DNA from: an uncultured Lacinutrix sp.
Lineage (GTDB): Bacteria > Bacteroidota > Bacteroidia > Flavobacteriales > Flavobacteriaceae
Reading direction: 5' to 3'
DNA: 64,000 nucleotides
Assembly (NCBI RefSeq): GCF_947500605.1
Contig: NZ_CANMSJ010000001.1
Location: 496,001 to 560,000, forward strand
Below the pieces are notes generated by a model. That model was not told where the DNA came from, did not search any database, and was given only the letters and a program-made list of their open reading frames with translations. Of the stretch, positions 40,290-56,939 are shown in pieces. The number at the start of each line of letters is the position of its first letter. Position 1 is the first letter of the stretch. The translations under genes were made by a program, and so were the position numbers.

Positions 40290-41735
40290 TTATTTGTTTT
40301 TTACGTCTTCAACCATTTTTCTAGTCACTACTTTTTTAGAGTTTCCCCAACTATTATAAACATAAGTCAATACGTTTGCAATATCATCTGGAGAGAGAGA
40401 CTGTCTCGTCATAACACTATTGTATTTTGCGCCGTTAACAGTAATTTCTCCTGTTAAACCATTAATTACAACACCAATTGCACGGTCCACATCTGCATTT
40501 AAATAATCTGACTTTGCTAATGGAGGAAACGCGTTTGGAATACCTTGTCCTTCTGCTTGATGACAAGCAAAACAGGTTTGCATGTATGTTTCTTTACCAA
40601 ATTTCATTTGTTCTTCAAAAGATTTTGCAGGAATCTCGGACGCTACAATTTCGTTTGTAGTTGGCATATTTTGTATTCCAGGTCCTTCTGGTAAATAAAT
40701 ACCTTCACGTATCTCTCCAGAATATAATTTTTTATCTTTCTCTCCTTCAACTTTTAACATCCCTAAAGCACCTTTATTAAAGGCTCTAAAAATAGAATGA
40801 TCTACCAAAATAAAAGTTCCAGGTACATCTACTTTAAACTCAACAATAGCTGCGCCTCCTGCTGGTATTAGTGTTGTTTGTACATTTTCATTAATTAAGT
40901 CTCCTCCTTCTACATGTACTTTATCAAATATTTCACCAATAACATGAAAAGAAGACACTAAGTTTGGTCCACCATTACCTACATAAAGTCTTACCGTTTC
41001 TCCTACTTTAGCGGTAAGCGCGTTATCACCAGTTAAAGCACCAACACTACCATTAAAAACAACGTAATCTGCATTTTCGTCGACCGCTTTTTGCATATCG
41101 AAAGGTTGTAGTCCTCGTTCACCATTTTTACCTTTAGTGTAAAAATCGCCTTGCATGATATAATATTCTTTATCTACTTGTGGTAATCCGCCTTCTGGTT
41201 CAACTAAAATTAAACCATACATACCATTTGCAATATGCATTCCTACCGGTGCTGTTGCACAATGATAAACAAATAACCCAGGATTTAAAGTTTTAAAAGA
41301 AAACGTTTTTTCGTGTCCTGGAGCTACAAAAGAAGACTCCGCTCCTCCGCCAGGTCCTGTAACCGCATGTAAATCGATATTGTGCGGTAATTTATTATCT
41401 GGGTGGTTTGATAATGTAAACTCTACCTCATCACCAACGCGAGTTCTAATAAAACTTCCTGGAACAGAGCCGCCAAAGGTCCAATAATTATAAGTTGTAC
41501 CATCTGTCATGGTTCCTACTTTTTCTAAAATTTCCATATTAACAATTAGCTTTTTAGCTTTTCGTCTTCCTACAGCTGTGGGTACATGCGGTGGTGCTGT
41601 TAATTCTGCCAGCATTTCTCTATTTACAGAAATTTCTGAGGTTTCTAAGTGTTCTTCCGTATTGCTCTTTTTACATGATGTAAAAAAAAGCATTCCTAGC
41701 AATACACTACTTAGCAATACATTTACTTGTTTCAT
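40290..41735 (-). CDS. nirK: Copper nitrite reductase NirK with fused cytochrome c
   Basis: A 481-residue lipoprotein (FFTSC lipobox) that reduces nitrite to NO in the periplasm. Two cupredoxin domains hold type-1 Cu ligands in [16 protein letters not shown] and type-2 ligands in PHNIDLHAV (with the catalytic Asp), [10 protein letters not shown] and [10 protein letters not shown]. Residues about 385-481 form a cytochrome c domain ([11 protein letters not shown], Met near YNSVM) that can pass electrons straight to the type-1 copper. It is first in the operon with nirV, SCO and porin genes. Expression is probably driven by the Fnr box at 41835. Confidence 0.93.
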
Positions 41736-41834
41736 TTTGGTTATAGTTTTAGTGTTATAAATCTGTATTAATATAAATAGGACAAAAACATCCTTTATAT
41801 AATCAAATGTAGTAGAGATTCGTTAGATAAAAGG

Positions 41835-41846
41835 TGACAATTATCA
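41835..41846. promoter_or_regulatory. Fnr-type box between nirK and a stress-protein gene
   Basis: TGACAATTATCA (centre 41840.5). Exactly 36.5 nt to the right ends TATATTTA (41870-41877, plus-strand -7 for the usp gene). Exactly 36.5 nt to the left ends TACATTTG (41811-41804, minus-strand -7 for nirK). One box thus appears to serve both divergent units. Confidence 0.7.
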
Positions 41847-41894
41847 TGTTATGAAATAATAATTCTTAATATATTTATGTTAAATAATTTAGGA

Positions 41895-42728
41895 ATGAAA
41901 AAGATACTATTACCCACAGATTTTTCAAAAAACTCAAAGAATGCTATCGATTATGCTATGGCATTATGTGAAAAATGGAAATGCACTTTTTATATATTAA
42001 ACGTGCAAAAACAATCGGGATTTATACTGGACGATTTAATGGCAGCACCGGTAAACTCTTCCATACACAATGCCGTTGCAGATGATAACGAAGAAGATTT
42101 AAATAAGTTTATCTCTAAGTTGAAAAAACAAAACATAAATAAAAATTACACTTTTGAATCTCTTTTTGATTTTGATAGTCTTACAGCTTCCATAAACCAA
42201 GTTGTAAAAGCCAAAAACATAGATTTAATAATTATGGGTACAAATGGCGCTACTGGTGCAAAAGAAGTAGTCTTTGGTAGTAATACACTAAATACAATTA
42301 GAAAAACAGATTGTCCTATTTTAATAATTCCAGAAAATTATAAATTTACTAGCATCGATAGCATACTATTTACAACAGAAAATTGTGAAGATTTTAATGC
42401 ACATGGCATTAAGCCTTTATTAGATATTATTACTACTTATAAATCTAAACTAAATGTAATAGATATAGACTTTGCTAACTATCCAAATAGTACTAAAAAC
42501 CATAACAGTGATTTAAAAGCTCTTTTTGGTGCTCAACCTTATACTTATCATTTAATTAAAAAAGTGCCTTACCCAATGGCTATAAATACGGTTACACAGT
42601 TGTTTGATTATAATTTACATTCGTTATTTATAGAATCTAAATCTTTTTTAGAACGTTTTATCTATGGTTCTGTTACTAACGAAATTAGTTATAATTCTAC
42701 TCTACCACTACTCATTTTACGTAAGTAG
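41895..42728 (+). CDS. Universal stress protein (two UspA domains)
   Basis: A 277-residue cytosolic protein starting at the ATG at 41895 (MKKILLPTDFSKNSKNAI, preceded by AGGA). The ORF track starts at 41877, but that codon overlaps the predicted -7 element of the Fnr-type promoter and the N-terminal extension is not found in its paralogues. The first UspA domain ends with the nucleotide-binding GTNGATGAKEVVFGSNT motif; the second domain is degenerate. Such proteins support survival under oxygen limitation. Fnr control is predicted. Confidence 0.88.
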   Translation: MKKILLPTDFSKNSKNAIDYAMALCEKWKCTFYILNVQKQSGFILDDLMAAPVNSSIHNAVADDNEEDLNKFISKLKKQNINKNYTFESLFDFDSLTASINQVVKAKNIDLIIMGTNGATGAKEVVFGSNTLNTIRKTDCPILIIPENYKFTSIDSILFTTENCEDFNAHGIKPLLDIITTYKSKLNVIDIDFANYPNSTKNHNSDLKALFGAQPYTYHLIKKVPYPMAINTVTQLFDYNLHSLFIESKSFLERFIYGSVTNEISYNSTLPLLILRK

Positions 42729-42742
42729 CGGTAAAGTACAAT

Positions 42743-43381
42743 TTACTCAACCACAAGTAGATTATTCTCTTTCAAGGTTTTAATTAGTGTTTTAGTATAA
42801 TCTTTAATGTTTCTTTTACTATTGGAAGACTTGGTTACCTCTATGGTGCCTTGCCATAATAATTCGCGTTCTTTTCCAGGACATATACAATACAAAGAAG
42901 TTTCTGTAGAATAAACAATATAATGTGCTGGTTCTTTATCAAAAAATAAATTTTGATTTCCATAATAATACTTATCAAAGGTATTATGTTTTCCTTTTTC
43001 AACCGCATCGTAAACAGCAATTAAAGGTACTTTGGTTTGCTGTCCAACAACCTTAGTTAACACGATAGCATCAAAACCTGCTTCTAATAATTGAGATTCC
43101 AAAGCATTTAACTCTTCAATTGTCTGTTTTCTGTTAGTAAAAGACGTTTCAAAGAAATCTACACTTTTAACAGCATTTACATTTTCTTTATCTAAAGCTT
43201 CAGCTACATTTTTTTCAAAACTGCTTCTTAATTCTTTATTTGCTGTCATACCAATTACTAATACTTTACTAGCTTCAAAAGTATAAGTCTCTGGATTTTT
43301 ATAAGCCTTAATTAATTTACTCGATGAGCAACCAGAACAGAATATTACAATTAAAAATACGGTTGTAATTAATTTATTCAT
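42743..43381 (-). CDS. Hypothetical lipoprotein in the usp operon
   Basis: A 212-residue lipoprotein (VIFCSGC lipobox). The body has alternating strands and helices (KVLVIGMTANKELRSSFEKNVAEALDKENV...) that recall the DUF4136-like or cell-envelope 'lipoprotein with Rossmann-like core' pattern, but I do not recognise a family. It ends the minus-strand cluster of usp genes (43389 gene 7 nt upstream). Function unknown; co-expression with stress proteins is likely. Confidence 0.6.
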   Translation of the reverse strand: MNKLITTVFLIVIFCSGCSSSKLIKAYKNPETYTFEASKVLVIGMTANKELRSSFEKNVAEALDKENVNAVKSVDFFETSFTNRKQTIEELNALESQLLEAGFDAIVLTKVVGQQTKVPLIAVYDAVEKGKHNTFDKYYYGNQNLFFDKEPAHYIVYSTETSLYCICPGKERELLWQGTIEVTKSSNSKRNIKDYTKTLIKTLKENNLLVVE

Positions 43382-43388
43382 CTTTATA

Positions 43389-43832
43389 TTAATTTAGTAA
43401 GCGTTTACTTTTATTCATTTTCATTATCTCTTTTATTAGACCATAAATTTGCTTTTTTAATGTTTTAAATTTTGCATTAAAAGCTATAGTTTCGAACATA
43501 ACTTTATAATGTCCATCCTTATAATCTTCTAATTCATTTGGCACAATAACATTATCTAATAATGTTTGAAGATTATTTTTATGTTCTTCTACTTTAAAAA
43601 GTAATACTTTTAATTCTTTCTGTAATTCAACAAGCGCTGTTGCAATAGCTTTGCTTTCTTCAAAAGTTTTTTCTGAAATTAAATCTATAGTATACTCCTT
43701 TATTAATTCGTTTAAGAAATCTAATTCATCTCTTTTAAAGAGAAGATGTGATATAGAAGTAAGCGTATCTTGATGCAGTTCTTCTGGATTGTGAAACTTG
43801 ATAAACTTTAATTGTGTGTGTCCTTTATTCAT
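43389..43832 (-). CDS. Helical hypothetical protein in the usp operon
   Basis: A 147-residue soluble protein, almost all alpha-helical and rich in Leu, Lys and Glu (LKVLLFKVEEHKNNLQTLLDNVIVPNELED). The spacing of helices suggests a helical bundle or coiled-coil; no family is recognised. It lies 51 nt after the 43884 usp gene and 7 nt before the 42743 lipoprotein on the same strand, so it belongs to the stress-protein operon. Confidence 0.55.
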   Translation of the reverse strand: MNKGHTQLKFIKFHNPEELHQDTLTSISHLLFKRDELDFLNELIKEYTIDLISEKTFEESKAIATALVELQKELKVLLFKVEEHKNNLQTLLDNVIVPNELEDYKDGHYKVMFETIAFNAKFKTLKKQIYGLIKEIMKMNKSKRLLN

Positions 43833-43883
43833 AACTTTTATATGTTAAATGGTATCGATGTATAAATTTTGTATAATAAAATA

Positions 43884-44741
43884 TTAAAGGCTTTCAATTC
43901 TTTCTTCTGAAGGAATAACTAAAAAAGGCACATTAGTATGATACACCATTTTATTGATAACAGGTGTAAATAATAGGTTTTCGAAAAAGCTATGCTTGTT
44001 ATGAATCATCACTAAAAAATTAATCTTATTTTCTATCTCGAAGGCCTTTATAACTTCAATTAAATCTTGATCCTCTCCTATATGAAACTCGTGAGCATTA
44101 TCTATAAAAAAGGCATCTAAAAATACTTTCATACGTTTTTGTTCTTCCTCTAAAGGAAGATGGTAATATGCGTTTAAAAAATGCAATTTTGAACTGTGTT
44201 CTTTACATACATCTCTAATAAGATCTAAGTAGCGATTAGATTTTTCAAGTTTATAATCTGTTGGAAATAATATGTTTTTGGGTGTTTCAAACTTAAAATT
44301 AGATGGCACAGCAATTACTGGACATTTTAGTTTTTTAATGGCGTACATTGTTTGCGATCCTAAAAACACTTCTTTAGCTCCAGTTGCTCCTTTGGTACCC
44401 ATTACTACTATATCTATAGCGTTTTTACTTATAAAATCTATAAGTTCTGGAATAAGCAGATTAAAAGCGGATATAGAGGTAAATGTATGCTTACTGTTAT
44501 GCCATTCTTTGTCAATTGTTTCTTCTAATGCTTTTAAATTTGAATTGGCAGCTTCTTTTTCTATTTCATAAATTTTTAATGCGCTATAACTATCTAACAC
44601 ATTTCCAGAGCTTATAGTTGCAGGTGTATATGTATGAAGAATATAAAATGTACATTCAACATCTTTATAAAATTGTACAGCATACGAGATGGCATTGTAT
44701 GCATTTTCCGAAAAATCTGTTGGTAATAAAATACGTTTCAT
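43884..44741 (-). CDS. Universal stress protein (two UspA domains)
   Basis: A 285-residue cytosolic protein. The N-terminus MKRILLPTDFSENAYNAISYAV is a perfect UspA start. The nucleotide-binding loop of domain 1 is MGTKGATGAKEVFLGSQT. Domain 2 begins near PKNILFPTDY and lacks the G-2x-G-9x-G motif, as in the paralogues. It is co-transcribed with the 44759 usp gene (17-nt gap). Confidence 0.9.
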   Translation of the reverse strand: MKRILLPTDFSENAYNAISYAVQFYKDVECTFYILHTYTPATISSGNVLDSYSALKIYEIEKEAANSNLKALEETIDKEWHNSKHTFTSISAFNLLIPELIDFISKNAIDIVVMGTKGATGAKEVFLGSQTMYAIKKLKCPVIAVPSNFKFETPKNILFPTDYKLEKSNRYLDLIRDVCKEHSSKLHFLNAYYHLPLEEEQKRMKVFLDAFFIDNAHEFHIGEDQDLIEVIKAFEIENKINFLVMIHNKHSFFENLLFTPVINKMVYHTNVPFLVIPSEERIESL

Positions 44742-44758
44742 CTATCTAGTTTTTAAAG

Positions 44759-45607
44759 TTATTCTCTGCGTAAATTTTGAAGTACGAGAAATGGAATTTT
44801 AATCTCTAAACCTATTTTGTCTATGGTAGAATTGTAAAGTATATCTTCAAGATACGTGTGCTTTTCATTAACCATAACAAGTAAATCTATATCTTGTTCT
44901 TTAATTGTTTTATTAATAGTATCTGTAACATTGTCCTCGGGTACTTGTGCAAACAAAAACTTATTATCACTAAAACAACTATTTAAAAAACTTTGGTTAT
45001 CCTGTTGTCTGTGCGATAAATGTTTCGCTTTAGAGACATATAACATATTAATTGTAGAGACATAATTCTTAGCGATACTACTTACTAGTTTTAACTCTCT
45101 TCGCTTAAAAGGAATCATATAATCTGTTGGAAATAATACCTTTTTAGGATGCATATCATGGTATGTAGCCGGAACTGCCAAAACTGGACATTGTACATAT
45201 TTAATAACTTTTATAGTATTACTACCAAAGGTTACTTTAGGGTTATTTGTTTTTCCCTTTGTACCCATAACTATTACATCTATATTTTCGCTGTCTACAA
45301 AGTCATTAATAACATCTACAATACTCCCAAATCTTGATTGCCTGTTGTAAACATGTCTTGGGTTTGGAGAAAGTTCAAGCATTTCTGCAACTACTTTTTG
45401 CAATCTTATATCTACATTTTGTTGAACTTTGTCTTTGTATTCTTCTAAATACTCTCTAGACATTTCGATTGTATTCTCGTATACCTCATCTGCAAAGGCA
45501 TGAACTATCATTATCTCGCTTTTATCATATTTAAATAATTCTAAAGCATATTTAATAGCATTTGTTGCTGTTTCGGAAAAATCGGTGGAGATAAGTATCT
45601 TTTTCAT
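44759..45607 (-). CDS. Universal stress protein (two UspA domains)
   Basis: A 282-residue paralogue (MKKILISTDFSETATNAIKYAL; binding loop MGTKGKTNNPKVTFGSNT; second domain from PKKVLFPTDY). It is first in a four-gene minus-strand operon (usp, usp, helical protein, lipoprotein). Its promoter is the Fnr-type unit at 45668: box centre 45673.5 and -7 TAGCTTTG ending at 45637, with a predicted leader of about 24 nt. Confidence 0.9.
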   Translation of the reverse strand: MKKILISTDFSETATNAIKYALELFKYDKSEIMIVHAFADEVYENTIEMSREYLEEYKDKVQQNVDIRLQKVVAEMLELSPNPRHVYNRQSRFGSIVDVINDFVDSENIDVIVMGTKGKTNNPKVTFGSNTIKVIKYVQCPVLAVPATYHDMHPKKVLFPTDYMIPFKRRELKLVSSIAKNYVSTINMLYVSKAKHLSHRQQDNQSFLNSCFSDNKFLFAQVPEDNVTDTINKTIKEQDIDLLVMVNEKHTYLEDILYNSTIDKIGLEIKIPFLVLQNLRRE

Positions 45608-45636
45608 ATTAGTTCTATTAATAATGATTAATACTC

Positions 45637-45644
45637 CAAAGCTA
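45637..45644 (-). promoter_or_regulatory. -7 element of the usp operon
   Basis: TAGCTTTG on the minus strand, ending exactly 36.5 nt from the Fnr-box centre (45673.5). Confidence 0.65.
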
Positions 45645-45667
45645 TAACAGATACTTAATAATTGAAA

Positions 45668-45679
45668 TGATATATATCA
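45668..45679 (-). promoter_or_regulatory. Fnr-type box of the four-gene usp operon
   Basis: TGATATATATCA, a perfect 12-nt palindrome with the TGAT-N4-ATCA core, at the class II position of the -7 element at 45644-45637. Confidence 0.7.
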
Positions 45680-45692
45680 GTTAATGAAGACT

Positions 45693-46532
45693 TTATTCAT
45701 GTAAAACTAAAAATGGAACATTGGTATGGTAACTCATTTTAACAACAGATGGTTTAAATAAAAGCATTTCGAAGAAATTAAGGTTCTTAGCTATTATTGC
45801 AACCATATCTATATGCATAGAATCTATAAACTCTTGCAATCCTTCTTGAAAATTTAAATGATTTACTTTATGGAAGCTACTGCTAGTAACTGTTTTAAAA
45901 TAGTCTTTTAAATAACTTCTGTTTTTTAATTGAGACTGTGTTAATGCCACTTTTGGGTTTACAATTCTAATCACTTTAACGCTAGAGTTATGCAAGTTAG
46001 AAATTGCTGTTAGTGTGTTTAAAACTTTACTTTTATAAATAGAATTATAGTCTGTTGGAAATACAATATTGAAAGGAATAGAAAACTTTGCGTTTTTAGG
46101 TATAACTAAAACAGGACATTGAATTTTTGTAATTACAGTTTGAGCATGAGTTCCAATAATTTTATTTTTACTAGCAGAAAAACCTTGAGTTCCCATTACA
46201 ATTAAATCAATTTCGTACTTATCTACCAATTGCTTTAAACCTTCTGTAAAACTATTTTTTAAATGCTCTATAACAATATTAGAAGCTTTTAGAGAAGAAG
46301 TATCCAGCATTTTATCTCTATTATTTTGTAAAGCTTCAATAACTTGATGCTCTGAAGACATCTCACCTGTTATGTAACTATTTATAGCTTCGAATGCTGG
46401 TGGTAGTGTACTTGGATGCTCTATATGTGCTAAAATAAAATTAACCTCATCATTACCAAAAAAAGCTTGTGCAAATTGCGTAGCATTCCAGGCATTTTCT
46501 GAAAAGTCTGTTGGAATTAAAATATTCTTCAT
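45693..46532 (-). CDS. Universal stress protein (two UspA domains)
   Basis: A 279-residue paralogue (MKNILIPTDFSENAWNATQFAQ; binding loop MGTQGFSASKNKIIGTHA, somewhat altered; second domain from PFNIVFPTDY). It has its own Fnr-type promoter (box 46607-46618, -7 TACTTTTG 46583-46576) and ends just before the next Fnr box. The altered binding loop may weaken ATP binding compared with its paralogues. Confidence 0.88.
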   Translation of the reverse strand: MKNILIPTDFSENAWNATQFAQAFFGNDEVNFILAHIEHPSTLPPAFEAINSYITGEMSSEHQVIEALQNNRDKMLDTSSLKASNIVIEHLKNSFTEGLKQLVDKYEIDLIVMGTQGFSASKNKIIGTHAQTVITKIQCPVLVIPKNAKFSIPFNIVFPTDYNSIYKSKVLNTLTAISNLHNSSVKVIRIVNPKVALTQSQLKNRSYLKDYFKTVTSSSFHKVNHLNFQEGLQEFIDSMHIDMVAIIAKNLNFFEMLLFKPSVVKMSYHTNVPFLVLHE

Positions 46533-46606
46533 TACTAATGTTAATTACTACATATTTTAAGAAATATGCTGTAAACAAAAGTATTAAGCGCTTTTATATC
46601 AAATAA

Positions 46607-46618
46607 TGATAAATATCA
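46607..46618 (-). promoter_or_regulatory. Fnr-type box of the 46532 usp gene
   Basis: TGATAAATATCA (centre 46612.5). The minus-strand -7 TACTTTTG (46583-46576) ends exactly 36.5 nt from the centre. It lies just past the end of the response-regulator gene. Confidence 0.7.
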
Positions 46619-46629
46619 GTAAACCAAGA

Positions 46630-47685
46630 TTATTCTACATTTTCTAGTGCTTCTAAATCAAGAATTTTAATGTTACGTCCTTCAATTTCAATAAAATTAT
46701 CTTTTTTAAACCCTGATAATGTGCGTATTAAACTTTCAGTTGCTATTCCTGCAACACTAGCTAAATCGTATCGAGATATCTTAATAGCTTCTTCTGGTTT
46801 TTTATTTAGAACTTTAGCAAATTGAAGAATGGTTTGTGCTGTTTTCTTGCGAACAGAACTATATGCCATTTGCAACAACTGATCTTTAATTTCTGAAATA
46901 TTCGCTGTTAAAACATTCATAAGTTCTATAGAAACATTTTGACTTTTGCCTAGAACCTCTTTTAAGCGCAGTTTAGATATACTTGTTAATTCTACAGCTT
47001 CAACAGCAGTAGCAGATTCTTGATAAGGCATAGTATCTACAAACGAAGTAAAACCAAGAAAATCATCATCCTTATGCAATGCAGTGATTAATTCTTTTCC
47101 ATTTTCGTCTATTTTATGACTTTTCACAACACCTTTTTTAATTAAATAAACATAGTTAGAATGTGAACCTTCTTCATAAATAGTATCTCCTTTAGAGAAT
47201 TTATGTGGTAAACCATTGTCATCAAAAAAATTCTTAAGCTCGTTAAGATCCCTTAAACGGTCTTCATTATCAACATCTTTTGTTTGGGAAACTTCTGTAG
47301 TTATTTTAGATAAAATTTGAGCTTTTGCTAGCCTACTCTCAATGGCACTTAACAACTCTTCCTCCTCGAAAGGCTTAGTAAGATAATCGTCTGCACCTAA
47401 ATCCATTCCTCTTCGTATTTCCTTATGTTCGGTTTTAGCCGAAAGAAATATAAACGGAATATGTTTTGTTTTCGGGTTAGTTGATATTGCTTCCAATACA
47501 CCATAACCGTCTATTTCAGGCATCATTATATCGCAAACTATAAGATCTGGAATATTACACTCTGCTTTCTCAATTCCTATTTTACCATTAGCGGCTGTTA
47601 AAACTTTATAGTTAGAAAGCTCTAAAAGCTCTGCGGTGTTTTCGCGCAATGCCAAGTCGTCTTCAATTAACAATAATGTTTGCAT
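46630..47685 (-). CDS. Response regulator with Crp/Fnr-type output domain
   Basis: A 351-residue regulator. The receiver domain (about 1-125) has phospho-Asp 52 in IVCDIMMPEIDG and the Lys in DDYLTKPFEEEEL. A cNMP-binding-like barrel (about 150-265) and a Crp HTH (about 275-345) follow. The recognition helix GIATESLIRTLSGFKK has the Glu and Arg that in CRP/FNR contact the TGA core, and it closely resembles that of the Fnr protein at 53352 (GTAKEACIRTLSTFKK). It is 5 nt downstream of its kinase, so it probably links phosphorylation to the same type of operator. Confidence 0.88.
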   Translation of the reverse strand: MQTLLLIEDDLALRENTAELLELSNYKVLTAANGKIGIEKAECNIPDLIVCDIMMPEIDGYGVLEAISTNPKTKHIPFIFLSAKTEHKEIRRGMDLGADDYLTKPFEEEELLSAIESRLAKAQILSKITTEVSQTKDVDNEDRLRDLNELKNFFDDNGLPHKFSKGDTIYEEGSHSNYVYLIKKGVVKSHKIDENGKELITALHKDDDFLGFTSFVDTMPYQESATAVEAVELTSISKLRLKEVLGKSQNVSIELMNVLTANISEIKDQLLQMAYSSVRKKTAQTILQFAKVLNKKPEEAIKISRYDLASVAGIATESLIRTLSGFKKDNFIEIEGRNIKILDLEALENVE

Positions 47686-47690
47686 AGTAT

Positions 47691-49202
47691 TTATTTTATT
47701 ATGTTTACAGGAATTGTAACAGTAAAAGTAGTTCCCTTATTCTCTTTACTTACAAATGTAATGTTACCTCCTAAATTTTCTAAATGACTTTTTACAATAT
47801 TTAAGCCAATACCTGTTCCTTGCGTTAATAGCGCATTTTCTGCTCTAAAATACCTATTAAATAAAAACTTTTGTTCTTCTTCAGGAATACCAATACCAGC
47901 ATCTATAATACTAATTTTTAAACCTTCTTTCTCAACCCAAACCTTTACTTCTATTTTAGTGTTTTCAGGAGAATATTTTATGGCATTATTCACCAAATTG
48001 GTAAGCATTAACTCTAGAATTTTTTCATCGAAATCTAGTACAATATCATCAATTGCGTCTGGATATGTAATAGTTTGCCCTTCTTTTAAGAGCATATTAG
48101 CATCGTAAATTACTTCGTTTACTACTTTGCTTAATGAAAATGTTGAGAATTTGTAATTTACTTTTCCACTTTCTAATCGTTCTATAGATAGAAAATCATT
48201 AATAATATTATTAAGGTATTTTACTTTATTCTGTATTGTATTTATGTGCTTATCCCTTTTCTCTTGTTGTTCGCTTTTTGTGTATTTACCTATTAATGTA
48301 GAAGAGGTTAAAATACCACTTAATGGTGTTTTAAACTCATGAGAAACTAAAGACAAAAATTTAGTTTTAAGTTCGTTAAGTTCTTTTTCTACATGTAAAG
48401 CTTCTTGTAATTGTTGCGTGCGCTCTTCTACCGTTTTCTCTAATCTTTCTGTGTAGTTTAGACGTTCTGTTATATCAAGTATAATAGCAATTAATGTGTC
48501 TTTGTCGTTTGATCTAGAGCGTTGTAAATGTATTTCTACTGGATATTGGGTACCGTCTTTTCTTTGATGAATGGTATTAAACTTTATTTTAATCTCTGTG
48601 CCGTCTAAAAGCGGTTGAATTGTTTCTTTAAACTGAGCTTTATTTAAGTAAGGTTTAATATCTAATGGTGTTAGCTCTCTTAACTCAGCAAGGCTATAAC
48701 CTATGTTTTTTATTGCTCCTGCATTAACATTTAAAAACTTAAATGTTTTTGTGTCAAATATGAAAATTTCGTTTAAAGATTCATTAAAAATATTAGCCCA
48801 ATGTTTTAGCTCTTCTTCAGCCTTTTTTCGCACTGTAATATCTATTATCAATGCCATAACAAAATGATTGCCATGAACAGTAAAAGGATTTAAACCGGCT
48901 TCTACAGGAAAAGTAGAGCCATCTTTTCTTAATCCATACAAATTTCTACCATGACCCATTTGGCGTTTACCACTATGCTCTAAAAAGGTATCCACTTGCT
49001 TAGAGTGATTATGATGGTATTTTTGTGGTATTAAAATTTCTAAAGGCTTGCCTATAAGCTCATTTTCTTCATATCCAAACAAGGCATTTGAAGACTTATT
49101 AGTAGCTACAATAATCTGCTTATGATCAACAACAATAATACCTTCTGAAATAGCTTCAGAAAGCGTTTTAAAAACGTTATTCGTTTTTTTGAAAATTTCC
49201 AT
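47691..49202 (-). CDS. Soluble PAS-PAS histidine kinase, FixL-like first PAS
   Basis: A 503-residue cytoplasmic kinase without TM segments. PAS1 (about 10-130) resembles FixL in GKPLEILIPQKYHHNHSKQ and MGHGRNLYGLRKDGSTFP: His66 lines up with the heme-ligating His and Arg86 with the ligand-pocket Arg. PAS2 (about 135-255) is followed by a coiled coil, the HisKA box SLVSHEFKTPLSG, and the ATPase motifs NLVNNAIKYSP and GTGIGLNIVKSHLE. Many non-heme PAS domains share the His, so oxygen or NO sensing is a hypothesis. It forms an operon with the Crp-output regulator. Confidence 0.88.
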   Translation of the reverse strand: MEIFKKTNNVFKTLSEAISEGIIVVDHKQIIVATNKSSNALFGYEENELIGKPLEILIPQKYHHNHSKQVDTFLEHSGKRQMGHGRNLYGLRKDGSTFPVEAGLNPFTVHGNHFVMALIIDITVRKKAEEELKHWANIFNESLNEIFIFDTKTFKFLNVNAGAIKNIGYSLAELRELTPLDIKPYLNKAQFKETIQPLLDGTEIKIKFNTIHQRKDGTQYPVEIHLQRSRSNDKDTLIAIILDITERLNYTERLEKTVEERTQQLQEALHVEKELNELKTKFLSLVSHEFKTPLSGILTSSTLIGKYTKSEQQEKRDKHINTIQNKVKYLNNIINDFLSIERLESGKVNYKFSTFSLSKVVNEVIYDANMLLKEGQTITYPDAIDDIVLDFDEKILELMLTNLVNNAIKYSPENTKIEVKVWVEKEGLKISIIDAGIGIPEEEQKFLFNRYFRAENALLTQGTGIGLNIVKSHLENLGGNITFVSKENKGTTFTVTIPVNIIK

Positions 49203-49238
49203 AAGTAAAGATATGTTTTTTTTATCTCTGTTAAATAC

Positions 49239-49250
49239 TGATAAATATCA
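49239..49250 (+). promoter_or_regulatory. Fnr-type box upstream of the TerB-like gene
   Basis: TGATAAATATCA (centre 49244.5) between the divergent kinase and TerB-like genes. TACATTTA (49274-49281) ends exactly 36.5 nt to the right, pointing to the TerB-like gene. The minus-strand TATCTTTA toward the kinase is offset by 2 nt and runs into its start codon, so it probably is not used. Confidence 0.65.
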
Positions 49251-49301
49251 TTTTTATAATAACAAGCTGGTATTACATTTACAGTAAGCAAATTAGTTAT
49301 A

Positions 49302-49724
49302 ATGACACATGTAAAAAAACCAGATATTTTTTTTTATCAAAGCTTAGGTGAATTGTTTTATGCTGTTGCAGCTTCAGATAATATAGTTAAAGTTGAAGAA
49401 TATAGTGTACTGTTAAAAATGGTTTTAGAGGAATGGAAAATCTATGAAAACACAAACGAATTCTACAATGAAGCACCTGGATATCAAATAGAATTTGTTT
49501 TTAAATGGTTTGATTATGAGCATATGGATGCTCAAGATTGTTTTAAAAATTTCTGTGATTATGCAAGAGCAAACTCCAAACTGTTTACAAAAGATATTAT
49601 TAAACTTATTCTTAAAACAACAGAGTCTATAGCAAGTGCTTTCGCCTCTAAAAACAAAAGCGAACTTATTATGCTTGGTAAATTACAGATACTTTTAAAA
49701 GAACTAAGTTCTAATAACGAATGA
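49302..49724 (+). CDS. TerB-like helical protein
   Basis: A 140-residue all-helical soluble protein. The opening (FYQSLGELFYAVAASDNIVKVEEYSVLLKMVLEEW) matches the TerB-like pattern: a helix, a 'DxxVxxEE' acidic turn, and a further helix that in TerB can bind metal. Family assignment is moderate. It has a predicted Fnr-type promoter with a leader of about 15 nt. It is followed after 39 nt by a lipoprotein and may head an operon. Confidence 0.6.
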   Translation: MTHVKKPDIFFYQSLGELFYAVAASDNIVKVEEYSVLLKMVLEEWKIYENTNEFYNEAPGYQIEFVFKWFDYEHMDAQDCFKNFCDYARANSKLFTKDIIKLILKTTESIASAFASKNKSELIMLGKLQILLKELSSNNE

Positions 49725-49763
49725 GATAACACAGTTATTTAATAATTAAAAAAATATTATAGA

Positions 49764-50639
49764 ATGAAACACCTAATAGTAATTTTAATTTTTACTCTAG
49801 TTTTTAGTTGTAAAACGGATAAAAAAGAAGATACAATAGAAATAGTAGAAGATACCATAGAACTTAATCACGAAAAAACAGACTCTATAACTGCAATCAC
49901 ACCAGATATTATACAAGACAAATCTATTGCTATAGAATTAAAACAAAATAAACTTATTGAGAAAAAAGATGAAAGACAATCTCTTGAAGCCTTAATTATT
50001 GAAAAAAAATATTTAAAAGAAAAAGAGGGCTATTCTATAGACTTTACCTACCCATTACTTAACGAGAAACAAAATCTTAAATATGTAAATTTTAACGATT
50101 ATATAAATGATTATTATGTTGATATATCGGGAACCGAAACAGCTATTTTAGAAAGTAAGGCTTTGTGCGATAGTATTGCTCTATTAAAATTTAAAGAAAA
50201 TAGATTAATTAATTATAAAGTTTATAATGTTAATCACGATTTAATAAGTGTCGTTTTTTACAAAGAAAACTTTTACTCTGGTACACTACATCCTAGTTAT
50301 TCTTTCGATTGTTTAAATTTTGATTTAAACAGAGGTGTATTCATGACCTATGAAGATTTCTTTTTAGAAGGTACTGAAGCTGAATTCACAACTTTAATAA
50401 ACGAAGAAATAAATAGTAAAATAAGTAAAGGAGAACTCTTTTACGATTGTTGGGAACTCTCTCAAGACGATTTTTTAGAACATAAAAACAATTTTGTTTT
50501 AAACGAAACTTATATAGAGTATTATTTTGATGATTGTATTATGTGTCCATCTTATACTGGAAGTTATTCTGTAGAAATTCCTTTAGTAAAACTACTATCC
50601 GTTATTAAGAAATATGATCAAAATCCTTTAGTGTTTTAA
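49764..50639 (+). CDS. DUF3298/DUF4163-type lipoprotein
   Basis: A 291-residue lipoprotein (LVFSC lipobox). A charged linker (about 20-80) precedes a domain with YSIDFTYPLLNEKQNLKYVNFNDYINDYY...NYKVYNVNHDLISVVFYKENFYSGTLHPSYSFDCLNFDLNRGVFMTYEDFF and a C-terminal YIEYYFDDCIMCPSYTGSYSVEIPL. This is the DUF4163-DUF3298 (PdaC/RsiV-like) arrangement of envelope proteins that bind peptidoglycan or lysozyme. The role is inferred from family only. Probably co-transcribed with the TerB-like gene. Confidence 0.75.
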   Translation: MKHLIVILIFTLVFSCKTDKKEDTIEIVEDTIELNHEKTDSITAITPDIIQDKSIAIELKQNKLIEKKDERQSLEALIIEKKYLKEKEGYSIDFTYPLLNEKQNLKYVNFNDYINDYYVDISGTETAILESKALCDSIALLKFKENRLINYKVYNVNHDLISVVFYKENFYSGTLHPSYSFDCLNFDLNRGVFMTYEDFFLEGTEAEFTTLINEEINSKISKGELFYDCWELSQDDFLEHKNNFVLNETYIEYYFDDCIMCPSYTGSYSVEIPLVKLLSVIKKYDQNPLVF

Positions 50640-50693
50640 ATAACTATTAGTGTTAATACTTCAGTAATTAAAGAAATTAACAAGTACATAGAT

Positions 50694-50709
50694 TACGCAT
50701 TAATGCGTA
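50694..50709. repeat. Perfect 16-nt palindrome
   Basis: TACGCATTAATGCGTA in the gap before the DinB-family gene. It could be a regulator site or part of the promoter region; it is not followed by a T run, so it is not a terminator. Confidence 0.4.
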
Positions 50710-50777
50710 TATTAACTTACTAAAAATCTAGACCGCTATTCTACATAAACTTTAATATAATTTCGAATTAATCACTC

Positions 50778-51251
50778 ATGAAAACAAAAACAACACTTTT
50801 ATTAGAGTTATGGATTGAAGCTAGAACTAGATTCACTAATCAATTAAAAGCTCTCACTACTGAAGATTTAAGTAAAAAGCTATCACCTTCTCCTAATAGT
50901 ATTGGTTTTTTAATTAGACATATTGGTGATGTAGAATTACTTTTTGCTAAAAATGTTTTTGGAGCTAGTAATATTCGTGTTATTGCGAAAACTGTTATTA
51001 CACAAAAAGACACCGGAAAATGGACCAAACTAGACGATCTTAAAACTTATGTTGAGCATTCGTTTAACGAATTAAAGAAAATAGTAGAGTTACAAACCGA
51101 AGCCGATTGGGAAGCTATAGTTGAAACTAAAGAGTTTGGAATAAAAACAAAAGCTGAAGCTTTTGGGCGCATTATTTCTCATACCGCATATCATGCAGGA
51201 CAAATGGCTATTATTAATAAATATGGTAAAACAATAAACCCTAATGCATAA
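50778..51251 (+). CDS. DinB-family putative metal-dependent hydrolase
   Basis: A 157-residue four-helix protein of the DinB/YfiT superfamily. His residues in SIGFLIRHIGDVE and ISHTAYHAGQMAI line up with the family's metal ligands, so a metal site is likely. Members act in bacillithiol transfer or unknown thiol chemistry. It is an isolated gene in the 49-52 kb block. Confidence 0.85.
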   Translation: MKTKTTLLLELWIEARTRFTNQLKALTTEDLSKKLSPSPNSIGFLIRHIGDVELLFAKNVFGASNIRVIAKTVITQKDTGKWTKLDDLKTYVEHSFNELKKIVELQTEADWEAIVETKEFGIKTKAEAFGRIISHTAYHAGQMAIINKYGKTINPNA

Positions 51252-51332
51252 CGCATAAAACAACAATATCACCATTATTATTTTTAGATAATATTATTGT
51301 GGTCTGTAATGCGTATTTTTAAATTAAAAAAA

Positions 51333-52100
51333 ATGAATATAGGATTAGTTTTATCTGGCGGTGGCATTAGAGGTGTTGCGCATATAGGTGTATTAAAAGC
51401 ACTAGAAGAACATAACATTACTGTTTCTCATATTTCTGGAACAAGTGCAGGTGCTATTGTAGGCGGCTTATATGCTGCGGGACATTCATGGCAAGAAATT
51501 CTACAATTTTTTAAAAATGTTCCTCTCTTTAATTATAAAAAATATGCAAGTAATAAACCAGGATTTATTGATACTTCTAAATTCCATAAAGAATTAACAC
51601 CTTATTTTACTGAAGACAATTTTGAGACATTAAAGCTTAAATTATATATTACTGCAACCAATTTAATAACTACAGAATTAAAAACATTTAATACAGGTAC
51701 ACTTATAAAAACTATTCTAGCATCCGCCGCAGTACCTGGCATTTTTTCTCCAGTTTTAATAGAAAATGACACATATGTAGATGGTGGTATATTAAATAAC
51801 TTTCCTGTAGAACCGTTACAAAATGAGTGTTCTAAAATTATAGGAGTATATGTTAATCCTATACAAGATGTTACAACTAAAGATTTAAAGCACTCTTATC
51901 AAGTTTTAAATCGTGCTTACGATATTAGTTTTAACAATCAATCCATGTCCAAATTTAATCTATGCGATTTGGTAGTATACCCAACAAAACTTAAAGAATA
52001 TGGTTTATTTAGCATAAAAAATATAGATACTATTTTTAATATTGGGTACGAAGAAGCAATAAAAGTGCTTGAGCAAGAGAAACAAAAATTAATAATTTAA
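51333..52100 (+). CDS. Patatin-like phospholipase
   Basis: A 255-residue serine acyl hydrolase when started at the ATG at 51333 (MNIGLVLSGGGIRGVAHIGVLKAL), which places the oxyanion loop GGGIRG at the usual N-terminal position. The ORF track begins 36 nt earlier at TTG. The nucleophile elbow is GTSAG and the catalytic Asp sits in DGGILN, so the Ser-Asp dyad is intact. It hydrolyses phospholipids or acyl esters; no signal peptide, so it acts in the cytosol or at the inner leaflet. Confidence 0.92.
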   Translation: MNIGLVLSGGGIRGVAHIGVLKALEEHNITVSHISGTSAGAIVGGLYAAGHSWQEILQFFKNVPLFNYKKYASNKPGFIDTSKFHKELTPYFTEDNFETLKLKLYITATNLITTELKTFNTGTLIKTILASAAVPGIFSPVLIENDTYVDGGILNNFPVEPLQNECSKIIGVYVNPIQDVTTKDLKHSYQVLNRAYDISFNNQSMSKFNLCDLVVYPTKLKEYGLFSIKNIDTIFNIGYEEAIKVLEQEKQKLII

Positions 52101-52181
52101 ATATTAGTAATAAACGTTTTCTAAATATTTAATCATTGCCAAAGATTTTTTTTCCTCTTAAACTGGCATAACAAAAAAGAT

Positions 52182-52382
52182 TTAAAAAACAAACTCAAAG
52201 TCAAACCCTAAAGAAATCAATTTTTCTCGAACACCCTCTATTACATTATGTGTAGAAAATTCGAAAATAAACTTATGGTTAATTTTATCTACAACTAGAT
52301 TAGAAATCCCTTTAGTATTCGCTAGACAATTTTTAATAGAAGAATCATTTTTCGATTCTTTTGATATAACTATGGCTTTCAT
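52182..52382 (-). CDS. Small HMA-fold-like protein under an Fnr-type promoter
   Basis: A 66-residue protein with the beta-alpha-beta-beta-alpha-beta order of heavy-metal-associated (HMA) domains: KAIVISKE, then a helix with KNCLANTKGI, the strand pair NLVVDKINHKFIFEF, then VIEGVREKLISLGFDFEF. The CxxC metal site is absent; only one Cys remains. The gene is supported by a predicted Fnr-type promoter on its strand (TATGTTTA 52410-52403, shared box 52434-52445) with a leader of about 15 nt. It may handle copper or be a metal-free interaction domain. Confidence 0.65.
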   Translation of the reverse strand: MKAIVISKESKNDSSIKNCLANTKGISNLVVDKINHKFIFEFSTHNVIEGVREKLISLGFDFEFVF

Positions 52383-52433
52383 TTAATGCTAATTTTAAAT
52401 TGTAAACATATATTTAAAAAAAATATTAAAGGA

Positions 52434-52445
52434 TGACTTTTATCA
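52434..52445. promoter_or_regulatory. Bidirectional Fnr-type box
   Basis: TGACTTTTATCA (TGATAAAAGTCA on the minus strand), centre 52439.5. TAACTTTG (52469-52476, plus) and TATGTTTA (52410-52403, minus) each end exactly 36.5 nt from the centre, serving the usp gene at 52506 and the small HMA-like gene. Confidence 0.72.
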
Positions 52446-52505
52446 TCTTAAGCAATTAACTCTTATCTTAACTTTGACTAAAAATTAATTTAAAACACTA
52501 AAACA

Positions 52506-53333
52506 ATGAAAAAAATACTTGTTCCTGTAGATTTCTCAGAATATTCAGAAAATGCTTTAAAAGTTGCATCAGAAATTGCTAAAAAACAAAATGCAGAAAT
52601 AGTAGCTGTACATATGCTTGGTCTTAGCGATGCAGTAATTACAAAAGAAGAAGATTCTATGGAAGGAATGTTTTTTTTAAAACTGACTCAAAAACGTTTT
52701 GTTGAGTTTTTAGACAAAGATTACTTAGAAGGTATTACTATACACCAAACCGTAAAAAACTATAAAGTTTTTAGCGAAATTGATGATGTTGCAAAAGAAC
52801 ACAATGCAGATCTTATTGTAATGGGATCTCATGGTAGTAGCGGTTTAAGCGAAGTTTTTGTTGGTTCTAATACAGAAAAAGTTGTTAGAACAAGTGCAGT
52901 TCCTGTTTTAGTTATTAAAGAAGGGAGTAGCTTTAATGCATCAAAAGCTGTTTTTGCATCAGATTATAAACTAGAAAGTATCAACGTGTTTAATAGAGTA
53001 ACTTCTATATTTAAATTATTAGATATTGATGTTAAACTACTATATGTAAATCTTCCTGGTGAGTACTATTTAAGTACAAATGAAATAGAGCAACGTATTG
53101 CTAATTTTATAATACACCTACATGGAGATGAGAAAATATTACCAGAAGATGTTACAATCTATTCTGATTACTCTGTAGAAAAAGGTGTTTTTAATTATGC
53201 AAAAAGAATAAAAGCAGATATAATTGGTATTCCAACTCATGGAAGAAAAGGACTAGCTCATTTTTTCTCTGGTAGTATAAGCGAGGATATTGTAAACCAC
53301 TCTAAACTTCCTGTACTTACAGTAAAAATATAA
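52506..53333 (+). CDS. Universal stress protein (two UspA domains)
   Basis: A 275-residue paralogue whose two domains both keep the ATP-binding signature: MGSHGSSGLSEVFVGSNT in domain 1 and IPTHGRKGLAHFFSGSISE in domain 2. It is the least degenerate of the five usp genes. The start MKKILVPVDFSEYSENAL is preceded by an Fnr-type promoter. A terminator for it lies inside the end of the convergent fnr gene. Confidence 0.93.
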   Translation: MKKILVPVDFSEYSENALKVASEIAKKQNAEIVAVHMLGLSDAVITKEEDSMEGMFFLKLTQKRFVEFLDKDYLEGITIHQTVKNYKVFSEIDDVAKEHNADLIVMGSHGSSGLSEVFVGSNTEKVVRTSAVPVLVIKEGSSFNASKAVFASDYKLESINVFNRVTSIFKLLDIDVKLLYVNLPGEYYLSTNEIEQRIANFIIHLHGDEKILPEDVTIYSDYSVEKGVFNYAKRIKADIIGIPTHGRKGLAHFFSGSISEDIVNHSKLPVLTVKI

Positions 53334-53351
53334 AACCTTTATTTAAATATT

Positions 53352-54041
53352 TTAGAAGCCTTCTATTAAACGATAGAGGGCTTTTTTATTTTCTATTTTT
53401 ATACGCTTACCGTCTGTAGAAATTAATTTTCCTTTTTTAAAAGTAGATAAAGTTCTTATACAAGCTTCTTTAGCCGTACCAACTACATTAGCAATATCCT
53501 CTCTTGTAAGTGTTACAGCAATAAAACCATCGCAATCTGTTCCAAAACTATCTTCTAAGTGTATTATAGTCTCAGCACAACGTTGTTTTACGCTTTTTTG
53601 AGCCATATTTACTATAACATTATCAGCAAATTTTAAATCATTAGCAATATTTAATAAAACGGCTTTTGTAAAATCTACATTATTATTTATACTGTCTTGA
53701 AGGTGTTGCTTAGGTATGTAACAAACCTCCATATCGCTAAGTGCAACTGCACTTAAATTAGTCCTTTCATCTGTAATCACAGAGCGTTGTCCCAAAACTT
53801 CTCCACGAGCAGACATTTTTACTATTTGGTCCTTCCCATTATCACACATCTTAAACAGTTTCGATACGCCACTACGTACACAAAAAACACCATTTAGCTT
53901 CTCTCCTTCTTTAAAGATAACTTCTCCTTTTTTAATGTTTTTAGAGACTTTACTATCCGAAATTCTCTTCAACTCATCCTTCTTTAGAGCTTTAAGAGAG
54001 TTTAATTCTCGTATTATACAGTTTTCACAACGGTTATGCAT
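53352..54041 (-). CDS. Fnr-like oxygen/redox regulator
   Basis: A 229-residue Crp/Fnr protein. The N-terminus MHNRCENCIIREL supplies Cys5 and Cys8; further Cys lie at about 54, 66 and 107. FNR uses four Cys for a [4Fe-4S] cluster, so a cluster is plausible though the spacing differs from E. coli. The C-terminal HTH (LTREDIANVVGTAKEACIRTLSTFKK) keeps the Glu and Arg that recognise TGA. Its position next to ccoI and the nearby TGAy-N4-rTCA boxes mark it as their most likely activator. A class II -7 is not seen for this gene itself. Confidence 0.88.
   Translation of the reverse strand: MHNRCENCIIRELNSLKALKKDELKRISDSKVSKNIKKGEVIFKEGEKLNGVFCVRSGVSKLFKMCDNGKDQIVKMSARGEVLGQRSVITDERTNLSAVALSDMEVCYIPKQHLQDSINNNVDFTKAVLLNIANDLKFADNVIVNMAQKSVKQRCAETIIHLEDSFGTDCDGFIAVTLTREDIANVVGTAKEACIRTLSTFKKGKLISTDGKRIKIENKKALYRLIEGF
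53356..53387 (+). terminator. Terminator of the usp gene inside the fnr coding end
   Basis: AAGCCTTCTAT pairs with ATAGAGGGCTT (one wobble) followed by TTTTTT on the plus strand. It covers the last codons of the convergent fnr gene. Confidence 0.7.
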
Positions 54042-54124
54042 TCTGTTTCAGTTTTGAGAGTTAAAGATAACAAAATCATTGCCATCATACCTTATGTTTT
54101 CAACTTAAAAAACCGCTGTAAACA

Positions 54125-54136
54125 TGATAAAAGTCA
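54125..54136 (+). promoter_or_regulatory. Fnr-type box of ccoI
   Basis: TGATAAAAGTCA inside the 20-nt near-palindrome AACATGATAAAAGTCATGTT (54121-54140), centre 54130.5. The -7 element CACCTTTG (54160-54167) ends exactly 36.5 nt downstream, with one mismatch at the first T. Confidence 0.72.
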
Positions 54137-54197
54137 TGTTTTTAAGCGTAGCTTTTTAACACCTTTGCAACAGGTATAATGAGCAAATAAAATAATT

Positions 54198-56606
54198 ATG
54201 GAAAATTGTTTCCATTGTGGCGACGAGTGCAGGACAACTGTAATCGAGCATCACAATAAATTCTTCTGTTGTAACGGTTGCAAAACTGTATTCGATATTT
54301 TAAATGATAACGATCTGTCGTATTATTACGATTTAGAACAAACACCAGGTACTACTCCATTTTTTCAAGAAGGGAAATTCGATTTTCTAGAAAACGAAAA
54401 AATAACTGCCCAACTTTTAGAGTTTAACGAGCAAGGCACACAAGTAGTTTCATTATTAATACCTACTATTCATTGTAGTTCTTGTATTTGGGTTTTAGAG
54501 AACCTCAACAAATTAAATCAAGCTGTAAAAACATCTCAAGTTAATTTCCCTAAAAAAACGGTTAGAATTACTTTTTCTTCGGAAGAATTAACACTTCAAA
54601 ATCTAGTTATCCTTTTATCAAAATTAGGTTACGAACCTTATATTTCTTTAGACGATGCTACAAAAAAAAGTTCTAAAGTAGATAGAAGTCTTATCTATAA
54701 ATTAGGTGTTGCAGGCTTTGCTTTTGGTAACATAATGTTTCTTTCGTTCCCAGAATATTTTGAGGTTAACGAGTTTTGGTTAGATAAGTTTAAACCAATT
54801 TTTAGATGGTTAATGTTTGCCTTTGCATTACCAGTTGCTTTTTATTCTGGACGCGATTATTTTGTCTCTGCATATAAAGGTTTACGATCTAAAATTTTAA
54901 ATATCGATGTTCCAATTGCTATAGGTATTTCGGTATTATTTATTCGCTCTTCAATCGAGATTATATTCGATTTAGGTACTGGTTTTTTCGATAGTATGTC
55001 TGGTTTGGTCTTTTTCTTACTTCTAGGGAAATTCTTTCAGCAAAAAACATATGCTTTCCTGTCTTTCGAACGCGATTACAAATCCTATTTTCCAATAGCA
55101 GTAACACGATTATTAAAAAACAAGACTTCTAAAACCGAAGAACAAGCACAAGTTTACGAGCTTAAAAAAGGAGATAGATTATTAATTAGAAATGCAGAAC
55201 TGTTACCTGTAGACGCCATTCTAATTAAAGGAAATGCATTAATAGATTATAGCTTTGTAACTGGAGAAGCAGAACCTATTACTAAACAATCTGGAGAACA
55301 TTTATTCGCAGGAGGAAGACAACAAGCAGGATCTATTGAAGTCGAAGTTTTAAAACCGGTAGAACAAAGTTACCTTACCCAACTTTGGTCTAACGAGATT
55401 TTCAATAAAAACAACCAAAGCAGCTTTCAGTCGTTAACCGATAGTATTAGTAGACGTTTTACATTAAGCCTTTTACTAATAGCTGTAATAGCAACTACTG
55501 TATGGCTGTTTATAGATGTATCAATTGCTTTAAATGTTTTTACTGCTGTATTAATTGTTGCTTGTCCTTGTGCAATTGCATTAGCAGCTCCTTTTACTTT
55601 AGGGAACTTACTGCGCATTTTTGGACGTAACAAACTGTATATAAAAAATAGTAGTGTAATAGAACAAATGTCGCATATAGACACTGTCGTTTTCGATAAA
55701 ACAGGAACACTTACTACAAGTACAAAAAACACTATTAGCTACGAAGGCATTACACTTACTAAAGAAGAAGAAGCTTTACTAACAAGTACGCTTAGAGCGT
55801 CAAACCATCCATTAAGCAGAGCGTTATATGCTATTTTAGACAAAAATAATATTCAAACTTTAGACGATTTTAAAGAAGATGTTGGTCAAGGTATCACAGG
55901 CGTAATTAATAAGCAAAAAATTAAAGTAGGATCATTTAATTATGTAGAAAAAGATGCTAAAATTAAAAATAGCCAAATACAACAACGTACAGCAATTCAC
56001 ATTAGTAAAGACAACGAATACAAAGGTTGCTATGTGTTTTATAATGAATACAGAACTGGAGTAAAAGACGTATTTAATACACTTAGTAAGACTGCTAATA
56101 TTGTTATTTTATCTGGTGATAATGAAGGTGAAAAAGAACATCTTAAAACCATACTCCCAGAACATGCCACTTTACTTTTTAATCAAAAGCCAGAAGACAA
56201 ACTAAATTATATTAAACAGCAGCAGCAAAATGGCAAAACCGTTTTAATGGTTGGCGATGGACTTAACGATGCTGGAGCTTTAGCACAAAGTAATGTTGGT
56301 ATTTCTATATCTGAAAACGTAAACATCTTCTCTCCTGCTTGCGATGGTATTTTAGATGCTTCAAAATTTAAAGACATCACTTCTTTTTTATCGCTTTCGC
56401 GGAAAGGCGTTACCATAATAAAATATGCCTTTATTTTTTCATTAGTCTATAATTTAATAGGGCTCGGTTTCGCTGTCACAGGTCATTTAAAACCTGTTGT
56501 TGCAGCCATTTTAATGCCTTTAAGTTCAATAAGCATTGTAGTATTTACAACTATCGCCACATATTTTGCTGGTAAACAACTGAATAATAAAACCAATGTA
56601 TCATGA
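54198..56606 (+). CDS. ccoI: Heavy-metal-transporting P-type ATPase CcoI
   Basis: An 802-residue P1B ATPase of the CcoI/CopA2 group that exports copper for cbb3 oxidase maturation. An N-terminal Cys-rich segment (ENCFHCGDEC...FCCNGC) and an HMA domain with CSSC precede eight TM helices. The metal-binding CPC lies in VACPCAIALAAP, the phosphorylation site in DKTGTLT, and the hinge in MVGDGLNDAGAL. Class and location upstream of ccoNOQP support the name. A repeat-like TCGCTTTCGCGGAA lies within the C-terminal coding region. The gene overlaps the next ORF by 4 nt. Confidence 0.95.
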   Translation: MENCFHCGDECRTTVIEHHNKFFCCNGCKTVFDILNDNDLSYYYDLEQTPGTTPFFQEGKFDFLENEKITAQLLEFNEQGTQVVSLLIPTIHCSSCIWVLENLNKLNQAVKTSQVNFPKKTVRITFSSEELTLQNLVILLSKLGYEPYISLDDATKKSSKVDRSLIYKLGVAGFAFGNIMFLSFPEYFEVNEFWLDKFKPIFRWLMFAFALPVAFYSGRDYFVSAYKGLRSKILNIDVPIAIGISVLFIRSSIEIIFDLGTGFFDSMSGLVFFLLLGKFFQQKTYAFLSFERDYKSYFPIAVTRLLKNKTSKTEEQAQVYELKKGDRLLIRNAELLPVDAILIKGNALIDYSFVTGEAEPITKQSGEHLFAGGRQQAGSIEVEVLKPVEQSYLTQLWSNEIFNKNNQSSFQSLTDSISRRFTLSLLLIAVIATTVWLFIDVSIALNVFTAVLIVACPCAIALAAPFTLGNLLRIFGRNKLYIKNSSVIEQMSHIDTVVFDKTGTLTTSTKNTISYEGITLTKEEEALLTSTLRASNHPLSRALYAILDKNNIQTLDDFKEDVGQGITGVINKQKIKVGSFNYVEKDAKIKNSQIQQRTAIHISKDNEYKGCYVFYNEYRTGVKDVFNTLSKTANIVILSGDNEGEKEHLKTILPEHATLLFNQKPEDKLNYIKQQQQNGKTVLMVGDGLNDAGALAQSNVGISISENVNIFSPACDGILDASKFKDITSFLSLSRKGVTIIKYAFIFSLVYNLIGLGFAVTGHLKPVVAAILMPLSSISIVVFTTIATYFAGKQLNNKTNVS
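56391..56404 (+). repeat. TCGCTTTCGCGGAA repeat copy inside ccoI
   Basis: A copy of the G+C-rich motif also found at 60529-60542 (identical 14 nt) and, with one mismatch, at 16598-16611. It encodes part of the conserved LSLSRKG segment. Confidence 0.5.
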
Positions 56607-56845
56607 TAAAAGAAACATTACAGTTAACACACAAAATAGCGCAATTAGAAGCTGCTACATTAAGTCAAGAATGTAACGGATGCTCCTTAAAGCGCAATTA
56701 TATAACTAGAGAGTATAACGATTTACGTACCAAATATGAGTCTATAGAATCCTTATTAAAATCTAATTTCATACAACCAAAAGGATATAATATAGCAGAG
56801 ATTAAACGCTCAATTTCAATTTTAGGATTGTACGTATTAGTATAG
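56603..56845 (+). CDS. Small hypothetical protein coupled to ccoI
   Basis: An 80-residue helical protein whose ATG overlaps the ccoI stop codon (ATGA), a strong sign of translational coupling. A CxxC (ECNGCSLKRNY) lies in the middle of a helix-rich chain. No family is recognised. It sits between ccoI and the Fnr box of the cco operon, so a role in cbb3 oxidase assembly or copper delivery is possible but unproven. Confidence 0.6.
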   Translation: MIKETLQLTHKIAQLEAATLSQECNGCSLKRNYITREYNDLRTKYESIESLLKSNFIQPKGYNIAEIKRSISILGLYVLV

Positions 56846-56877
56846 TTTCTTAAAAAAATTAACATTTTTTTCAAAAC

Positions 56878-56889
56878 TGATAAAAGTCA
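56878..56889 (+). promoter_or_regulatory. Fnr-type box of the cco operon
   Basis: TGATAAAAGTCA (centre 56883.5), identical in core to the ccoI box. The -7 TAATTTTA (56913-56920) ends exactly 36.5 nt downstream, 19 nt before the ccoS start. Confidence 0.72.
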
Positions 56890-56939
56890 TCTTTTTAAAG
56901 AATCAACAATAGTAATTTTACAAAATAATTCAGGTAGGT

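Follow-up and report, generated by a model that had tools for sequence, protein, structure and literature searches.

Regulatory boxes of the form TGAY-N4-RTCA recur near respiration and stress genes of a marine flavobacterium, an uncultured Lacinutrix sp., raising two questions: whether these boxes belong to activator-dependent promoters, and which protein reads them. Both are addressed here, starting from a stretch of 64,000 nucleotides that was analysed as a whole and is referred to below as the window.

Box and promoter geometry in the window

A pattern search of the window recovered all seven boxes proposed by the first-pass annotation, including the two described as two-sided (41835 and 52434), which brings the promoters to nine. 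The pattern TGAYNNNNRTCA has 9 matches in the window versus 2.8 expected, a number reached in 0 of 100 shuffles; the two further matches, at 34485 and 60010, have no element. The annotation had also placed a -7 element "close to" TAnnTTTR so that it ends 36.5 nt from each box centre. Exact TAnnTTTR elements occur at this distance in eight promoters (41835 and 52434 on both strands, 45668 and 46607 on the minus strand, 49239 and 56878 on the plus strand), leaving a gap of 23 nt between box and element (N23), and at the corresponding position the ninth promoter, that of ccoI, reads CACCTTTG, so that the looser wording was correct. In the transcription start site (TSS) map of F. psychrophilum, the flavobacterial -7 element TAnnTTTG lies at -12 to -5 (PMC9723704). 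With the element in this position, the box centre is therefore predicted at -41.5, in agreement with the class II activator geometry claimed earlier. Sigma-70-type promoter matches around box 1 remained within the spread of the shuffles (4 vs 2.4, sd 1.9). The sites and the genes that they are predicted to serve are as follows.

40290-41735, nirK, identified by TIGR02376
41804..41811, minus strand, -7 element TACATTTG of the nirK operon
41835..41846, box 1 TGACAATTATCA, two-sided: usp (plus) and nirK operon (minus)
41870..41877, plus strand, -7 element TATATTTA of usp
45637..45644, minus strand, -7 element TAGCTTTG of box 2
45668..45679, minus strand, box 2 TGATATATATCA, serving usp 44759-45607
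46576..46583, minus strand, -7 element TACTTTTG of box 3
46607..46618, minus strand, box 3 TGATAAATATCA, serving usp 45693-46532
49239..49250, unstranded, box 4 TGATAAATATCA, serving gene 49302 (plus)
49274..49281, plus strand, -7 element TACATTTA of box 4
49302..49724, plus strand, gene of a 140-aa protein behind box 4
52185..52382, minus strand, 66-aa gene opposite usp
52403..52410, minus strand, -7 element TATGTTTA of the 66-aa gene
52434..52445, box 5 TGACTTTTATCA, two-sided: usp 52506 (plus) and 66-aa gene (minus)
52469..52476, plus strand, -7 element TAACTTTG of usp 52506-53333
54125..54136, plus strand, box 6 TGATAAAAGTCA, between fnr and ccoI
54160..54167, plus strand, non-consensus -7 element CACCTTTG of ccoI (54198-56606)
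56878..56889, plus strand, box 7 TGATAAAAGTCA, serving the cco operon (ccoNO 57158-59359)
56913..56920, plus strand, -7 element TAATTTTA of the cco operon

Since the element TATATTTA overlaps the mechanically called start of the usp reading frame (41877), the likely start codon is the ATG at 41895, a position that agrees with the predicted TSS. The 140-aa protein matches no Pfam or NCBIfam model, and its homologue in another genus (L081, 51%) is also preceded by a box. The product of the 66-aa gene is weakly similar to an HMA-domain protein placed opposite usp in another genus.

Enrichment and conservation of the box promoters

Own-genome counts were obtained by pattern search, with the spacing between box and element scanned from N8 to N38. 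This genome-wide scan, which the first-pass annotation had proposed, returned 14 matches at N23, versus 34 spread across the other 30 spacings (about one each). The sum over all spacings equals that of the reversed control (48 vs 46), and the excess therefore lies at N23. The box without its element is uninformative at this scale (148 matches genome-wide, and 256 when the pattern is reversed). In 201 genomes of the Flavobacteriaceae, box and element were found together at N23 2697 times vs 101 times for the reversed control, with at least one match in 179 of the genomes. Likewise, in 30 genomes N23 accounts for 945 matches vs 31.3 per spacing at N14-22 and 31.9 at N24-32, an approximately 30-fold peak. 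In a phylum-wide draw, counts peaked in the Flavobacteriaceae, fell off in the remaining families of the order and class, and came close to zero in most families beyond the class, the one exception being G461. This genome contains 28 box promoters and 0 control matches, which suggests that the system either was transferred or has a deeper origin.

Among the 80 promoters retrieved, A or T predominates at the box centre, the nucleotide directly after the box is T in 90%, and the first ORF mostly starts about 10-25 nt past the predicted TSS. Judged by these features, which lie outside the search pattern, the box promoters look functional. Together with its N23 element, the cco box recurs in Lacinutrix, Dokdonia, Maribacter, Cellulophaga, Flavobacterium and others, and the ccoI box recurs in the same genera and others with a weaker element, which in relatives usually has A at the second position and ends in TTTG. 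The ccoI element lacks the first T in nearly all relatives, and in many of them a GGTATAATGAGCAA-like stretch then follows.

Palindromes and TA-rich elements are expected by chance in AT-rich DNA, and the G+C content of the window is only 31%. However, a chance origin is refuted by the reversed-pattern control, by the peak at a single spacing and by the conservation across genera, and the probability left to it is negligible.

Candidate regulators

Two predicted box readers are encoded among these sites, one of them beside a kinase gene.

46630..47685, minus strand, REC-cNMP-HTH_Crp fusion (Pfam), second predicted box reader
47691..49202, minus strand, PAS-PAS histidine kinase, adjoining the fusion gene
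53352..54041, minus strand, Fnr-type regulator, first predicted box reader

The protein at 53352 combines the Crp/Fnr sensor fold with an HTH_Crp domain (Pfam PF00027 and PF13545). Its invariant cysteines are C5, C8, C54 and C107; the positions of the E. coli FNR ligands C20, C23 and C122 are aligned and invariant, C29 is missing, and C54 aligns with none of the ligands. The protein is named Fnr-type rather than FNR because of the missing C29 ligand and because its score with the NCBIfam FNR model, 106.6 bits, falls under the cut-off of 228. The predicted structure (pLDDT 79.8) matches the fold of A. fischeri FNR with a TM of 0.78, and the best solved-structure match, by sequence as well as by fold, is the Crp/Fnr protein of P. 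gingivalis (2gau), a structural likeness to a protein from a different Bacteroidota family. The Fnr-type protein is predicted to be an Fe-S oxygen sensor.

The second candidate, the receiver-Crp fusion, was part of the interval covered by the first-pass annotation and was not named there as a regulator. Its gene is adjoined by that of a PAS-PAS kinase in 20 of 20 retrieved genomes. The solved domains closest to the first PAS domain of the kinase are the haem PAS domains of FixL and DosP. The proximal His position is kept in all kinases read, and the distal IIGI of FixL reads QMGH, so that haem binding by this domain is uncertain. Presumably, the fusion is phosphorylated by this FixL-like kinase encoded beside it.

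Which protein reads the box

The presence of each regulator was set per genome by E-value gaps. In the 201 genomes, which are related and in which the association of boxes with regulators is therefore not phylogenetically independent, the mean number of boxes per genome is 25.5 where both regulators are present, 10.8 where Fnr occurs alone, 15.7 where only the fusion is found and 2.0 where both are absent. When the set is limited to genomes of 2.5 Mb or more that are at least 90% complete, a single regulator still goes with many more boxes than no regulator (means of 10.9 for Fnr alone and 16.2 for the fusion alone vs 1.7 for neither). The Fnr-only genomes are in line with the earlier claim that the protein at 53352 controls the boxes; the part of that claim which found no support is control by Fnr alone, given that 38 of the 201 genomes have the fusion without a close Fnr orthologue, none of them with fewer than six boxes, and show the same kinds of targets. 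A recognition-helix core, E-x-x-I-R, is common to both proteins. Many boxes without a close match to either regulator occur in G049 (29) and G149 (16), both incomplete assemblies, and G139, which is 99% complete, has 10 (3 in the control). The absence of every E-x-x-I-R helix from boxless genomes was not borne out cleanly as an expectation. Separately, a Crp/Fnr protein of G010 (L153) has a similar helix, GTAKESLVR, though this genome has one box promoter.

The fixed geometry, the family-wide enrichment, the association with each regulator and the target content were computed directly. Taken with them, the boxes are probably class II sites at -41.5 that two regulators read, activating genes of micro-oxic respiration and survival. 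For DNA binding, the direction of regulation, oxygen as the signal and phosphotransfer, we infer the following scheme. A Crp/Fnr-family dimer on the box would replace the -33 element of the flavobacterial sigma-A promoter and bring RNA polymerase to the -7 element TAnnTTTR. One box would have two readers in the Flavobacteriaceae, the Fnr-type protein as a predicted Fe-S oxygen sensor and the receiver-Crp fusion, phosphorylated by the FixL-like PAS kinase. Both would switch on the cbb3 oxidase and its assembly, hemN, usp, cytochrome c, a hibernation factor and, here, nirK.

Fnr might instead be the sole reader, the fusion having other targets and its association with boxes reflecting shared ancestry or lifestyle. 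The location of fnr between the ccoI and usp boxes and the boxes of Fnr-only genomes fit this reading, which is nevertheless quite unlikely in view of the fusion-only genomes, with their boxes before the same target families, and of the box found beside the kinase-fusion operon at most of the loci retrieved. The element of box 4 that faces the kinase gene (49206-49213) is out of register at N25 (38.5 nt from the centre); in several relatives it lies at N24 or N25, and the opposite side stays at N23. The kinase-fusion operon may thus not be activated via box 4. Since a dimer bound there might not activate, and since both proteins are predicted on the same site, one regulator could activate while the other competes for the box as an antagonist. 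However, fusion-only genomes keep the N23 activator geometry, from which the fusion is predicted to activate, and antagonism appears very improbable.

Alternatively, two regulators could share the box and respond to different signals, one of them other than oxygen (nitric oxide, redox or energy state), making this a shared respiration regulon. The presence of nirK among the targets points in this direction, as do the uncertain haem binding of the PAS domain and the lack of the C29 ligand in Fnr. Against it, the targets cbb3, hemN and usp match the FNR and FixK regulons, which are under oxygen control, and cbb3 is induced in F. psychrophilum when oxygen is limiting (PMC9723704), which makes different signals rather unlikely. 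Within the favoured reading of two activators on one box, a more specific version can be put forward tentatively, as a possibility somewhat short of even: the two sensors would be an Fe-S Fnr with altered ligands and a haem-PAS kinase with its receiver-Crp fusion, the latter being a FixL-FixJ-FixK chain shortened to two proteins.

Target genes and relation to known systems

Outside the window, N23 sites of the same genome precede hemN, a cytochrome c gene, a small gene with a dnaJ-type gene, and deoC. In other genomes, the first genes behind boxes include ccoNO, hemN, usp, and genes for cytochrome c, S30AE (hibernation factor) and CBS proteins, and fusion-only and Fnr-only genomes have a common core of Usp, COX1, HemN-type radical SAM, cytochrome c and S30AE. 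This content is close to the published FNR and FixK2 regulons (PMC2908626, PMC9104804), and in F. psychrophilum oxygen limitation induces, besides the cbb3 oxidase, haem biosynthesis enzymes (PMC9723704). The low-oxygen regulon of class II sites predicted by the first-pass annotation is therefore supported by enrichment at one spacing in the genome and the family, by the cco and ccoI footprints and by the targets.

Proteobacterial FNR regulons (E. coli FNR, Rhodobacter FnrL) include ccoNOQP, uspA, hemN and a heavy-metal P-type ATPase (PMC2908626). The flavobacterial system resembles them in the Crp/Fnr fold, in TGA-type half sites 4 nt apart and in comparable targets (PMC2908626), whereas its box has no fixed outer T (TGAY-N4-RTCA vs TTGAT-N4-ATCAA), its -7 element is phylum-specific and its cysteine set (C5, C8, C54, C107, with C29 missing) is different. 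In the rhizobial FixL-FixJ-FixK2 cascade, the activator controls hemN, usp and dnaJ genes and the cbb3 oxidase (PMC9104804); a PAS kinase closest to FixL, a receiver protein and a Crp/Fnr-type activator are common to both systems (PMC9104804). Unlike in that cascade, a single protein combines the receiver with the Crp-type DNA-binding part, so that FixJ and FixK do not appear as distinct steps, and because of this fusion and of the unproven haem the system is not classed as FixLJK. The promoters share TAnnTTTG at -12 to -5 with the sigma-A promoters of F. psychrophilum (PMC9723704) and differ in having, at a fixed distance upstream, a conserved activator box; neither Crp nor Fnr is mentioned in the main text of PMC9723704. 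In the literature that was searched, no earlier flavobacterial Fnr regulon or receiver-Crp fusion was found. By analogy, the system would operate as FNR and FixK regulons do, except that its box is a new variant, its promoter is specific to the phylum and a second protein also reads the box.

Implications for the Flavobacteriaceae

Little is known about the control of respiration genes in the Flavobacteriaceae, an abundant group with its own promoter code. The same promoter layout recurs thousands of times in this family, before genes with predicted roles in low-oxygen life. A family-wide box at a fixed distance provides a ready list of promoters together with two candidate regulators, and genomes that naturally have either regulator alone, both together or none are available for comparison.
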